Below, piece by piece: positions 5,504 to 42,214 of a stretch of DNA of 64,000 bases. The notes beneath the pieces are model-generated. The model was not told where the DNA came from, made no database searches, and worked only from the letters and a program-made list of their open reading frames with translations. This DNA is from a virus. The translations under genes were made by a program, and so were the position numbers. The stretch's first letter is position 1, and every line of letters begins with the position of its first letter. The stretch spans positions 41,347-105,346 of the IMG/VR virus record IMGVR_UViG_3300044675_005263; one strand, 5' to 3'.

Positions 5504-5794
5504 TTTTTCCCTTTCTCTCTTTGTAGCCCAACCCTATCATACCTATCCAAATAATCATAGTAGGAACTCTGAATTATTTTTTCCTAAATGCACTCCTGCA
5601 CCTCACGCTCAAAAAATTAAAAAAGGTGGCGGTCTGCCCGGAAGTAATAATTCACACTTGCCGTAAAGCTTCACGATCAAAATTTACCCCCACAAAGTGA
5701 AAAGCCCCACCGAGTAGGTGAGGCTTCTCTAGTTTCTAATCGGGGCGACACATGCTGGGAAAAATACATACCCAATTAGAAATCCTATTCTAGG
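5504..5794. other. Non-coding gap with promoter box, repeat and terminator
   Basis: Holds the -10 box TAGGTATGATAGGG near 5530, an AT-rich stretch, one forward-oriented copy of the CCCGGAAGTAATAA repeat at 5637-5650, a TTTACCCCC variant of the GGGGTAAAA motif, and the terminator of the VWA gene. No reading frame with a ribosome site was seen. Confidence 0.6.
5697..5726 (-). terminator. Rho-independent terminator of the VWA gene
   Basis: Minus-strand GCCTCACC-TACTC-GGTGGGGC stem followed by TTTTCAC, about 70 nt past the stop of the gene ending at 5795. Confidence 0.75.
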
Positions 5795-24152: not shown

Positions 24153-24937
24153 TAGTAGATACATACAAAGACATCTCTCCAGAGATTGTCAGCGCAATGA
24201 AACCTCTAATTAAAAAGTCTGACCACTACCATCATGGCCACGCTCGTCGCATGGCAAGAACTCTCCAAGTGATTCTTGACCAAAAACCTCAAGGTAGTTT
24301 TTTAGAAGTAGGAACAACAACACTCATACCACTCGTTCTTAGCAAGCTTGCTCCAGATCTAGACCTAACCGTTACTGACTTTAATCTAGATAAGCCTAAG
24401 CTTGGTGAAGACACCTTCACACTTCAAGATGAATCTATCAACCTCAAAGTTGGTCGTGTCAATATTGAAGATGAACCTCTTCCCTTCGACGATAATTCCT
24501 TCGACTTCATACTCCTCTCGGAAGTTATCGAGCACATGGAGGTCGACCCCATGTACATGCTTTCAGAGATCAATAGAGTTCTTAAAGTCGGAGGAACCCT
24601 TTTAGTTACAACACCCAACTGTGCTAGCACTTGGGCAATTCATAAAATCATCAATGGCATTGAGCCATACTTTTATATGCAATATCGCCACGATAGATCA
24701 CGCTATAGGCACAACTACGAATACAGCATCCATTCCCTTACAGCCGTTCTTAAAGCTGCAGGGTTTGATGGATCAACTTGGACTGAAGATTCTTTTGAAG
24801 AACCGCACACAGCCATCGGTCTTCGTCTTGAGATGATAGGAATAAAACTTCAACATACAGGTGACAACATTTTTGCAGTTGCTAAGAAAGTAAGTGGCGT
24901 CGTTGATAGATATCCAAAGGTAATCTATGTTGATTGA
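24149..24937 (+). CDS. SAM-dependent methyltransferase (class I)
   Basis: 262 aa. Motif I GSFLEVGTT (about residue 49), acidic residue after the second strand (TDFNLD), motif 'FDFILLSEVIEHM' and 'LKVGGTLLVTTPN' fit the Methyltransf_11/class I fold. TTG start overlapping the dCMP deaminase stop (TTGA), with AAGGTGAAG upstream. Substrate unknown; adjacency to a glycosidase-like gene suggests sugar or surface chemistry. Confidence 0.85.
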   Translation: MIVDTYKDISPEIVSAMKPLIKKSDHYHHGHARRMARTLQVILDQKPQGSFLEVGTTTLIPLVLSKLAPDLDLTVTDFNLDKPKLGEDTFTLQDESINLKVGRVNIEDEPLPFDDNSFDFILLSEVIEHMEVDPMYMLSEINRVLKVGGTLLVTTPNCASTWAIHKIINGIEPYFYMQYRHDRSRYRHNYEYSIHSLTAVLKAAGFDGSTWTEDSFEEPHTAIGLRLEMIGIKLQHTGDNIFAVAKKVSGVVDRYPKVIYVD

Positions 24938-25862
24938 AAACGAAAAAGACGCTCCTACTATCCACCGACTAGGTGGAGAGATTAAGAATGTTCGTCGCTT
25001 AGCTGACCCTGATATTAAAGAGTGGTCTGCTACTAACTTATCTATTGGCTACCATGAATCAACTGGCTACATTGGAATGCTTCGCTCTGGTAACTATGTC
25101 ATTACTCCTCTAGGTCAGTATCAAGTTGTTACTGGTGACATAATTCGCAGCAAGATTTATATTTCCGAACTTGATCCAGATACATATAAACTTACTAATT
25201 TACGAATGCTTGATGTCGAAAACATTTCAAAAGAAGGACCGATTCGTAGAGGGCTAGAAGATCCAAAACTTTTCTATCGTGATGATGCTTGGCACTTTAC
25301 TTGCGTAACTATGGAGAAAGGTCATACAGAGAAGGCTCGTATGGCTATCTGCCGTCTTAGCGATGATCTCAAATCAATAGTTTCTTTTGAGAAGTTTGCT
25401 GGAGTTGATGCTCATAGACCAGAAAAGAACTGGATGCTCTCCCCTGACCCTAACGAGTTTTTTGATTGGATCTATGGTCCTACATCTACTATTAGAAATA
25501 ATAAGATGATCACTCATATGAATGATAACCAACAAATTGCAAGTCTTAGAGGCAACAGTAATCTTCATCCATTAGAAGATGGAACATACTTAGCAGTTGT
25601 TCACAGACTCTTTACACGAACTATTACTAACAACACTCATAGATTTTATGTCCACTACTTTGCAAAGTATGATAAAAGAGGAAAAATCATTGCTCTTTCA
25701 CGAGGCTTTATCTTTGAGAATCGTGGTACAGAGTTTGCAGCAGGGTTAACAACTCAAGGTAATAACTTCCTTATTAGTTACGGAAGCAAAGATGTTTCAT
25801 CTCATATAGCGATACTGCCACAAGAGTTAGTACTTAAATCATTACTGCCAATACAGGAGTAA
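24927..25862 (+). CDS. Five-bladed beta-propeller glycosidase/phosphorylase-like protein
   Basis: 311 aa. RGLEDPKLF (108-116), 'EKNWMLSP', 'NSNLHPLEDGTYLAVVH' and 'GTEFAAGLTTQGNNFLISYGSKD' form the repeating blades and the E-D-P motif of GH130/GH43-like proteins that act on mannosides or other sugars. The general acid Asp is not obvious, so it may be a sugar-binding or phosphorylase-like relative. Overlaps the methyltransferase by 11 nt. Confidence 0.75.
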   Translation: MLIENEKDAPTIHRLGGEIKNVRRLADPDIKEWSATNLSIGYHESTGYIGMLRSGNYVITPLGQYQVVTGDIIRSKIYISELDPDTYKLTNLRMLDVENISKEGPIRRGLEDPKLFYRDDAWHFTCVTMEKGHTEKARMAICRLSDDLKSIVSFEKFAGVDAHRPEKNWMLSPDPNEFFDWIYGPTSTIRNNKMITHMNDNQQIASLRGNSNLHPLEDGTYLAVVHRLFTRTITNNTHRFYVHYFAKYDKRGKIIALSRGFIFENRGTEFAAGLTTQGNNFLISYGSKDVSSHIAILPQELVLKSLLPIQE

Positions 25863-26658: not shown

Positions 26659-27732
26659 ATGACAGAATATAAGCGTCTCGAGAGGGCAAGGAAACCTCTT
26701 GAGTCTGTAGTTCAAATGGACGACTTACTGTGGGATGTAATACGTCCATTTGACTATTCGACAGATGGAACAGAGAAGTTTTACCCTTTTGAAGTTCCAG
26801 AAGATCTACCTAAAGATTATTCAATAGGAGTTATTGTTGGAGCTTCAGGCACAGGAAAATCTACTCTTCTCAAAGAGTTTGGAAAAGCCACTCCAGTTGT
26901 TTGGGATACCAAGAAAGCTATTGCTTCTCACTTTGAATCTGCAGAGGATGCAGTAGAGCGCCTATCAGCAGCAGGTTTGATGAGTGTTCCAGAGTGGGCT
27001 AAACCATTTCAAGCTTTATCTAATGGACAGCAGTTTAGAGCAGGTCTTGCTCGATCTCTTCATAGTGGAGCAGTCCTAGACGAGTTCACATCTGTTGTAG
27101 ATAGGAATGTTGCTAAAGCAGCTTCTACTTCAATGGCTAGATATGTAAGACGAAATGGACTTAAGCAAATAACAATTGCTACTTGTCATAGAGATGTTTT
27201 AGAGTTCCTCGAACCTGATTGGGTAATTGATACTGATCGTGGTGAGTGGACCTCGGGAAGGTATCTTCAACGACCTCAACTGGTACTCGACATATATCCT
27301 TGCTCAAACTTACTTTGGAGTTACTTCGCTAAGCACCACTATCTCTCCGAGTCTCTCAACAAAGCCTCACACAACTACATGGCTATCTGGGAAGGAAAAG
27401 TAGTTGGGTTTTCATCCGTCATGGCTTATCCATCAGGAACCGTGCAAAATGCTTTCAGAGAGCATAGACTTGTCGTACATCCTGACTATCAGGGTTTCGG
27501 TTTTGGACCACGCATCTCCGAAGCAGTAGCTCGACACTACACAGAAAATGGAAAGCGATTCTTCTCAAAGACATCGCATCCACGACTAGGTGAGTATCGA
27601 GACCAATCACCAGTGTGGAAACCAACATCGAAGAACCATATGAGGAGGACAGATGGCAAAGCAACGAAAAGTAGGTGGGAGCTCAACAACGAAAGGTGGA
27701 GTTATTCCCACGAATTTATCGGATCTGTCTAA
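26659..27732 (+). CDS. ABC-type ATPase fused to a GNAT acetyltransferase domain (COG2401-like)
   Basis: 357 aa. Residues about 50-195: Walker A GASGTGKST (61-69), signature LSNGQQ (120-125), Walker B AVLDEF (138-143), H-loop H177. No membrane segments, so not a transporter. Residues about 205-340: GNAT-like fold with KHHYLS (225-230), a 'YMAIWEGKVVGF' strand and the acyl-CoA loop HPDYQGFGFG (274-283). ABC-ATPase/acetyltransferase fusions are known as COG2401; the KHHY motif also recalls Mom-type DNA-modifying GNATs. Start appears leaderless (TATCAT 6 nt upstream). It overlaps the next gene by 80 nt. Substrate unknown. Confidence 0.85.
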   Translation: MTEYKRLERARKPLESVVQMDDLLWDVIRPFDYSTDGTEKFYPFEVPEDLPKDYSIGVIVGASGTGKSTLLKEFGKATPVVWDTKKAIASHFESAEDAVERLSAAGLMSVPEWAKPFQALSNGQQFRAGLARSLHSGAVLDEFTSVVDRNVAKAASTSMARYVRRNGLKQITIATCHRDVLEFLEPDWVIDTDRGEWTSGRYLQRPQLVLDIYPCSNLLWSYFAKHHYLSESLNKASHNYMAIWEGKVVGFSSVMAYPSGTVQNAFREHRLVVHPDYQGFGFGPRISEAVARHYTENGKRFFSKTSHPRLGEYRDQSPVWKPTSKNHMRRTDGKATKSRWELNNERWSYSHEFIGSV

Positions 27733-28066
27733 GCATGCAATTGGTGAGCTCAGTCTTATCAAAGAAGACACAAAGATTATCCTTTGGTATGTCTCAGTTA
27801 TTGAAGCATTCAATATTATGCAGCTTGGCCCTGAAGCAACAGACCATTGCATAGGAACTCTTAACCGCCTACTACGCTACGAGAATCTTGCTCCACTTAC
27901 AGATGAGCCTAGAGAGTGGGTTCAAATTGGCGATGAACTGTGGCAAAGTATTCGCAATCGTGATGCTTTCTCCAATAATGGTGGAAAGACCTATAAACTT
28001 TACTCTGTCAATAATGACGTCGAGCATGAGACTATGAAGATGGAGCAAATAGATGTTGAGTCCTAG
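27653..28066 (+). CDS. Hypothetical protein, 137 aa
   Basis: MAKQRKVGGSSTTKGGVIPT, with GAGGAGGACAG immediately before the ATG. It starts inside the ABC-GNAT gene in another frame. Basic N-terminal tail, then a helical domain (HAIGELSLIKEDTKIILWYVSVIEAFNIM). The strong ribosome site and 80-nt overlap suggest a functional partner of the ABC-GNAT protein, but no family is recognised. Confidence 0.75.
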   Translation: MAKQRKVGGSSTTKGGVIPTNLSDLSKHAIGELSLIKEDTKIILWYVSVIEAFNIMQLGPEATDHCIGTLNRLLRYENLAPLTDEPREWVQIGDELWQSIRNRDAFSNNGGKTYKLYSVNNDVEHETMKMEQIDVES

Positions 28067-28283
28067 ATTTGCTAAAGTTATGTTGGCACACTACAGAAAG
28101 GAAAACCCAGTGGGAATAGCAGATAGCAGCAGGTTTGCAAAGTATTTAGAGCCTAAGTTCGGTTGGGGTCATGCTCAGTTTAAAAAAGATCTTGCAGATA
28201 AGATTGAAAAATCTAAAATTGATCCATCATGGAGACCTGACGAAGTTCTTCGCTATGTTGCTAAGATGGTAAGAGATTCTTAA
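28053..28283 (+). CDS. Hypothetical protein, 76 aa
   Basis: MLSPRFAKVMLAHYRKENPV; helical, basic (KYLEPKFGWGHAQFKKDLAD). GGAGCAAATAG precedes the ATG. Overlaps the upstream gene by 14 nt and runs into the converging minus gene. Function unknown. Confidence 0.7.
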   Translation: MLSPRFAKVMLAHYRKENPVGIADSSRFAKYLEPKFGWGHAQFKKDLADKIEKSKIDPSWRPDEVLRYVAKMVRDS

Positions 28284-40804: not shown

Positions 40805-42214
40805 ATGGCTAAAAGCATGATGGAGCACATTGCTCTTCTTCCAGAAGAAGAACGCAATGCAATTTTGGCTGATCTTGATATGGAACACGTTAAGTGGGAC
40901 TGGCGTATGTGGGGTCGACCAGAACAGATTGCTCCTGAAGGCGATTGGAATATTTGGATTTATCTTGCAGGACGTGGAGCGGGTAAGACCCGCTCTGCGT
41001 CCGAATGGGTAAGAGAGCAAGCAAGATACACAACAACAGGTCAACGACGTTTTGCATTAGTTGCTCGTACTGCAGCAGATGTGCGTGACGTTATTGTTGA
41101 AGGTGAATCAGGAATTATGAATGTGACGCCACCAAGTGAGCGTCCATTATACGAACCATCAAAGCGCCGACTAACTTGGCCTAATGGGAATACCGCAACA
41201 TGTTTTACCGCAGATGAACCAGACTCACTTCGTGGTCCGCAGTTCACTCATGCTTGGGGCGACGAGATTGCAGCATGGAGACAAACTCCAGATGCTGCTG
41301 GTATGACTGCTTTTGATAACTTGCGTGTTGGTACTCGTCTTGGAGCATCTCCACAGATTATGGTCACTACAACACCAAAGCGTGTTCCACTTTTGTACTC
41401 ACTTATGTCAGAAGCAGAAAAAACTGGCAAGGTTGTAATTAGTCGTGGTAGCACAATGGATAACGCTGGAAACCTTAGCTCAACATATCTTGACACAATT
41501 ACTGGCGTATATGCTGGAACTAGACTTGCTGCTCAGGAACTTTACGGCGAAATGCTTTCAGATGTTGAAGGTGCTTTGTGGACTATTGAAATGATCGAAG
41601 CATCACGGCACGGAGTCCTTCCACCGCAAGCACCGTTGCGTGTTATCGGTGTTGACCCGTCTGTTGCAGAAAATCCACGAGATGAATGTGGAATTGTAGT
41701 TTGTGCTTCTACTGCAGATAGAGATCTTTATAAGCGTCACGCTTGGGTACTTGAAGACGCATCTGTTTTAGGTTCACCTGAAGTTTGGGCTAATAAAGTT
41801 GTTGAGATGGCTAGACGTTGGGGTTGTCCAGTAGTAGCTGAAGTAAATCAAGGTGGAGCGCTAGTTCGTCAAGCGATTAATGCTATTGATCCAAATGTTA
41901 AAGTTTTAGAAGTCCATTCGAAGTATGGTAAGGCACTTCGTGCTGAGCCTACGGTTCTTGCATATGAGCAAGGTCGTGTTCATCACATTGGCTACTTAGC
42001 TGATCTTGAGTCGCAAATGACAGCGTGGATTCCAGGAGATTCAAAATCTCCAGACCGTGTAGATGCACTAGTACATGCACTCACCGCATTAATGATTAAA
42101 CCACCTGAAGGTTTTACTGGTGGCCGCATTACCGCAAAGTCTCCATCCGCAAGAAGACTTCCACCGTTTAGAGGTGGCGGAGGTGGAGCTAGGGTGTTTA
42201 GTCCTAAAGGCTAG
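40805..42214 (+). CDS. terL: Terminase large subunit
   Basis: 469 aa. ATPase: Walker A GRGAGKT (56-62), Walker B 'HAWGDEI'. C-terminal RNase H-like nuclease: 'VIGVDPSVAENPRDECGIVV' and late acidic residues (DRVDALVHAL). It packages DNA into the prohead and cuts the concatemer. Length and 'RMWGRPEQIAPEG...WIYLAGRGAGKT' motif match common phage TerL of the large-terminase_6 type. Confidence 0.95.
   Translation: MAKSMMEHIALLPEEERNAILADLDMEHVKWDWRMWGRPEQIAPEGDWNIWIYLAGRGAGKTRSASEWVREQARYTTTGQRRFALVARTAADVRDVIVEGESGIMNVTPPSERPLYEPSKRRLTWPNGNTATCFTADEPDSLRGPQFTHAWGDEIAAWRQTPDAAGMTAFDNLRVGTRLGASPQIMVTTTPKRVPLLYSLMSEAEKTGKVVISRGSTMDNAGNLSSTYLDTITGVYAGTRLAAQELYGEMLSDVEGALWTIEMIEASRHGVLPPQAPLRVIGVDPSVAENPRDECGIVVCASTADRDLYKRHAWVLEDASVLGSPEVWANKVVEMARRWGCPVVAEVNQGGALVRQAINAIDPNVKVLEVHSKYGKALRAEPTVLAYEQGRVHHIGYLADLESQMTAWIPGDSKSPDRVDALVHALTALMIKPPEGFTGGRITAKSPSARRLPPFRGGGGGARVFSPKG

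Follow-up and report, generated by a model that had tools for sequence, protein, structure and literature searches.

A phage ABC ATPase-GNAT fusion gene overlapped by a Tad3 homologue, and candidate slippage at the domain junction of its relatives

The window analysed here is a stretch of 64,000 nucleotides (positions 41,347 to 105,346) from the IMG/VR virus record IMGVR_UViG_3300044675_005263, a 105-kb virus, and it also encodes ribonucleotide reductase, ThyX and terminase. One of its genes encodes a further member of a known family of predicted DNA-modifying proteins, in which an ABC ATPase is fused to a GNAT domain, and beside it lies a separate homologue of the Thoeris inhibitor Tad3. The new part concerns the relatives of this gene rather than the window itself: their sequences point to recurrent slippage at the junction of the two domains. 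This is apparently unreported, as no description of junction slippage in ABC-GNAT genes was found in the literature searched. The slippage pattern offers a way to study assembly of the enzyme, because it predicts ABC-only subunits beside ABC-GNAT. If ABC-GNAT acylates DNA, then phages with widely differing hosts share a base-modification chemistry that is still uncharacterised, and in the window lineage the overlapping Tad3 gene would couple two likely counter-defences in one gene run.

The ABC-GNAT protein and its gene neighbourhood

The sequence-only reading described an ABC ATPase with all of its motifs, no membrane part and a C-terminal GNAT-like domain containing KHHYLS, and this description is borne out. 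The fusion gene (26659-27732, 357 aa; plus strand, as are its motifs and the two genes that follow it) is supported by its open reading frame, by Pfam and phrog profiles and by an AlphaFold model. The key residues of the ABC motifs do not vary in an alignment of 121 homologues: G61, S63, G64, G66 and K67 of the Walker A sequence GASGTGKST (aa 61-69, 26839-26865), S121 and G123 of the signature LSNGQ (aa 120-124, 27016-27030), D141 and E142 of the Walker B sequence AVLDE (aa 138-142, 27070-27084), which is followed by the D-loop SVVD, and the switch histidine H177 (27187-27189). The GNAT domain (aa 205-357, 27271-27729) matches PF13508 and, above the cut-off, PF00583 (E 1.4e-6). It contains the KHHYLS motif (aa 225-230, 27331-27348) and the acyl-CoA loop QGFGFG (aa 278-283, 27490-27507). 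Residues F223, H227, Y228, R270, Q278 and G279 are invariant in the same alignment, and G281 and G283 are kept in 96% and 98% of the homologues, respectively.

The AlphaFold model, built from the 121-sequence alignment, is that of a soluble protein with two domains (pLDDT 94.7, pTM 0.90). Solved ABC nucleotide-binding domains rank first among its PDB matches, with GNAT enzymes and the tRNA-modifying enzyme TmcA after them. The GNAT structures among these fold matches include 2ae6 and 1yr0. The best viral fold match is a homologue from a Leptospira phage. The model contains no membrane domain, and no membrane partner was found among the neighbouring genes scanned, so that an ABC transporter can be rejected. 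Upstream, at 24927-25862, a gene beside one for a methyltransferase encodes a protein of 311 aa whose match to GH43 is weak (E 0.14).

Relatives of ABC-GNAT occur in 79 phage records. Their neighbourhoods were compared in 80 viral and 80 genome-contig loci, and later in 80 more viral loci retrieved by using the ABC portion of split members. A gene for a ParB-like (ParB_N) protein immediately precedes ABC-GNAT in 57 of 75 genome-contig loci, which are largely prophage-like, in 10 of 19 isolate phages, and in all 74 loci of the later viral scan that have enough upstream sequence. The frequency is 4 of 76 in the viral set of the window; no ParB gene is present in the 105-kb record or in its four close relatives, and the rows nearest to the window in the tree all lack it. 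An upstream ParB gene is therefore common among the relatives, not universal, and does not define the family. The gene for the terminase large subunit is found downstream in about 40 loci. A frequent order in genome contigs is ParB, ABC-GNAT, a small HTH protein and the terminase large subunit, which argues that many of these loci are prophage-like. The earlier reading had proposed an analysis of neighbours in other phages; the recurrent partner that emerges is ParB, not Tad3, even though the window clade is itself without ParB.

Several loci show individual variations. In two of them (L071:1635-2255 and L098:5125-5709), the fused gene is followed by another GNAT copy that stands alone and overlaps the end of the fused gene. 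A gene for a formyltransferase-like protein (PF00551) stands directly after ABC-GNAT in a Porphyromonas and a Pseudomonas phage (L022:5053-5526 and L024:5056-5673), where supply of the acyl group is a possible role. In Tenacibaculum phage pT24 (L013), an in-frame TGA near position 5664 splits the GNAT part.

Frame changes at the ABC/GNAT junction of relatives

The ABC and GNAT parts lie in different, overlapping frames in 35 loci (32 distinct junctions, a count inflated, as are the other counts of this pattern, by related contigs), and the GNAT part is in the -1 frame in every one of them (L016:5588-5690, L027:4453-4555, L030, L031, L032, L033, L012, L095, L104 and 26 loci in L238-L304). In two further loci the split is at +1, and in three an in-frame stop interrupts the gene. 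The frame junction falls at the boundary between the domains, and a start codon ahead of the HHY motif is often missing from the GNAT frame. A slippery sequence is present at the domain junction in most of the 35 loci; across the relatives, the junction sites include A_AAA_AAG (L031), A_AAG_GGC (L032), A_AAT_TTT (L104 and L244), and runs of A9-A11 and T7-T10. In some Streptococcus and Lactococcus phages, GTT_TTT is followed by a hairpin, with fold z-scores of -3.1 and -2.8 in two cases and of -1.4 and 0.0 in two others.

All 47 single-frame genes of one ParB-linked clade (fused loci in L249-L317) carry exactly A10 at the junction, and 46 of them have an immediate TAG or TAA in the frame that would be reached by one extra A or by a -1 shift, in genes whose third codon positions are only 60% identical (median). 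Eight relatives with A9 read GNAT in the -1 frame, and two with A11 read it in the +1 frame. The same pattern is seen, with T runs, in three members of the ParB-free set that includes the window, two of them fused (L040 and L041) and one split (L095). Parsimony on a FastTree phylogeny requires 11 changes between fused and split forms, five of them forced by well-supported branches.

Junction heptamers were not significantly enriched relative to all low-GC fused genes (18/32 vs 51/135, p 0.07), because that reference set includes the 47 fused genes with A10 from the one clade. The case for slippage therefore rests on the frame bias, the exact run length and the immediate stop. Sequencing error in homopolymers was considered and set aside, since it accounts neither for a run of precisely A10 in all 47 genes nor for the sites that are not homopolymers. 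Promoter-like sites occur at the level expected by chance.

The clamp-loader gene dnaX is a known case of a design built by programmed slippage. The combination of A10 and stop resembles dnaX-type recoding and suggests that two products would be made, ABC alone and ABC-GNAT. Either ribosomal frameshifting or transcriptional slippage is a candidate route in the relatives. Taking the comparisons together, we think it probable that a DNA-acylating ABC-GNAT family has been built by programmed slippage at the junction, with ABC-only and ABC-GNAT subunits, and that this arrangement has arisen several times, in both ParB-linked and ParB-free clades. The window gene has no slip site and would be a permanently fused version.

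Predicted DNA acylation and alternative functions

Iyer et al. (2013), as cited in the review PMC7824862, predicted that an ABC ATPase-coupled GNAT acylates a DNA base; the review gives QAX98348.1 as its example and names the phage pT24. In its phage record QAX98348.1 is a protein of Aeromonas AsFcp_2, and it is 49.6% identical to the window protein; pT24 also has an ABC-GNAT homologue. The predicted system (phrog_11143) has the same architecture as the window protein, which is homologous to it over its full length (E 6.7e-107, aa 45-356). The window clade differs in lacking the ParB of many relatives and in carrying the overlapping Tad3 gene. The DNA modification proposed by the sequence-only reading stands as the best available interpretation of ABC-GNAT, one that was already a published prediction. 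From the observed domains, motifs and conservation, the lack of a transporter partner in the gene run, and the linkage of relatives to ParB and often to terminase, we infer a DNA substrate, the chemistry and acyl group, and the timing of action.

The ABC part would dimerise on DNA and use ATP to load, scan or open it, the GNAT part would transfer an acyl group from CoA to a DNA base, and the modified base would shield phage DNA from host nucleases before packaging. The reasons for retaining DNA acylation as the best explanation, at odds we judge slightly better than even, include the published prediction, the ParB linkage, the position at the edge of the packaging genes, the intact acyl-CoA loop and the fit of the HHY motif. 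In the literature on Dnd, Dpd and BREX, members of the ParB superfamily are found together with ABC ATPases and base transferases. Dnd and Dpd resemble the present family in this pairing, in which the partner is an ABC ATPase for Dnd (DndB/DndD) and a base transferase for Dpd (DpdB/DpdA); unlike ABC-GNAT, their core transferase is not a GNAT.

The similarity to Mom, the GNAT-type enzyme of phage Mu (PF25680), had been proposed from KHHYLS, and it is weak and confined to the motif. The HHY motif aligns in register with the [HK]HYS-type motifs of Mom in a comparison with a seven-member Mom set, but the profile match is weak (prob. 4%, P 0.0095). A profile of the single Mu Mom gave no match to ABC-GNAT (prob 0.2), and the window protein did not match PF25680 at E <= 1, a profile that Mu Mom matches at 2.4e-75. 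The seven Mom proteins have no QxxGxG acyl-CoA loop, and Mom is without an ABC ATPase. Searches of viral contigs returned only near-copies with Mu Mom and two loci with a distant Mom. The window protein is not assigned to the Mom family, as PF25680 is not matched.

The weak Mom match, with none to PF25680, and the lack of ParB in the window clade both count against DNA acylation. So does one natural variant (L005:4001-4666), in which a clean in-frame deletion of 405 bp, relative to L003, has taken out the last portion of the ABC part together with the GNAT core; the flanks are identical where compared and the Tad3 gene and its start are intact, so that the GNAT domain may be dispensable. In addition, many members of the GNAT superfamily have proteins or small molecules as their substrates. 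The target of the GNAT part might be a protein (host RNA polymerase, a nuclease or a phage protein of the packaging machinery), and the ABC part would then serve to anchor the enzyme on DNA or as a switch driven by ATP. Protein acetylation is common among GNATs, the GNAT half matches general acetyltransferases in the PDB, and terminase genes are neighbours. There is also a precedent in the phage protein Rac, which acetylates RNA polymerase, as cited in the same review. However, fusion of an ATPase to a protein-acetylating GNAT would be unusual, and the ParB linkage and HHY motif favour DNA, so that a protein target appears unlikely.

Acetylation of an RNA or tRNA base is still less probable. 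The tRNA(Met) cytidine acetyltransferase TmcA joins an ATPase and a GNAT in one chain and depends on acetyl-CoA and ATP, its structure (2zpa) is fold match 12 of the model (E 5e-6), and in Gordonia phage AnClar the gene after the homologue encodes a tRNA methyltransferase. However, the ATPase of TmcA is of the helicase type and the overall structural overlap is low (TM-score 0.29), while ParB linkage points to DNA. The window protein, with an ABC ATPase rather than a helicase-type module as its N-terminal half, was not assigned to TmcA. A superinfection-exclusion or toxin-like effector that does not modify the phage's own DNA would fit the frequency in prophage-like loci and the patchy distribution, but it is quite improbable given that the PADLOC matches are weak and confined to the generic ATPase part and that the gene often lies at the edge of the packaging genes.

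The overlapping Tad3 gene

The observation that the next gene starts 80 nt inside ABC-GNAT, behind the ribosome-binding site GAGGAGG, is confirmed. The Shine-Dalgarno sequence (27642-27648) ends 4 nt before the ATG and is identical in five of five loci, and the two-frame coding overlap (27653-27732) encodes the first ~26 aa of the second protein. This gene (27653-28066, 137 aa) is a homologue of Tad3, a family of Thoeris inhibitors, and matches PF25185 (E 8e-19; 68 bits against a cut-off of 27). A profile of the 27-member family matches 9b7d_B ('Tad3') in the PDB (E 3.4e-8), a match missed by phmmer with the single window sequence. The AlphaFold model (pLDDT 82.4) has 9b7d, the ThsB-Tad3 complex, as its first Foldseek match, although a modest one (prob 0.99, E 0.017, TM 0.44). 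The window protein therefore agrees with Tad3 by HMM, profile search and fold; it is remote from the solved Tad3 in sequence, and its N-terminus is extended by ~20 residues encoded within the GNAT gene.

In alignments with nearly all other Tad3 proteins, the match begins only at about residue 20 of the window protein, arguing that ~20 residues of Tad3 are overprinted on the C-terminus of GNAT. No alternative in-frame start is present in the sequence between 27653 and the Tad3 domain. Both the overlap and the ribosome-binding site are conserved in all five genomes with both genes. In the GNAT frame (L002 and L003; 27 codons and few genomes), identity at third codon positions is 0.63-0.65 upstream of the overlap and 0.81-0.89 within it. 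This is the pattern that two coding frames would be expected to leave, and both appear to be under constraint in the overlap. The run continues with a third gene (28053-28283, 76 aa), which shares 14 nt with Tad3 and is kept in all five genomes that carry the pair; it matched no family in Pfam or phrog profile searches.

The anti-defence role suggested earlier for the module is supported for the overlapping gene, through its Pfam, profile and fold matches. By family membership, the overlapping gene is a likely blocker of Thoeris: the protein would bind the Thoeris TIR protein ThsB and presumably inhibit the system in the phage's host. The overlap would tie translation of Tad3 to that of ABC-GNAT, in one translationally coupled run with two separate functions.

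The suggestion that the overlapping gene is a functional partner of ABC-GNAT found no support. Tad3 is present in only 5 of the 20 ABC-GNAT records searched, namely those of the window and its closest relatives, and ABC-GNAT is absent beside 24 of 28 viral Tad3 loci; the pairing is seen only in the window and four close relatives. A single complex of the two proteins, for example an ATP-driven Thoeris inhibitor, is hardly credible despite the conserved 80-nt overlap and strong ribosome-binding site in all five pair-carrying loci, because neither gene retains the other as a neighbour outside the window lineage and gene overlaps are commonplace in phages. The overlap is an arrangement of this lineage and not a sign of a joint complex. 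In Arthrobacter phage Qui (L029:4992-6494), a Tad3 homologue lies near a gene annotated as nicotinate ribosyltransferase, and the two may form a counter-defence cluster linked to NAD.
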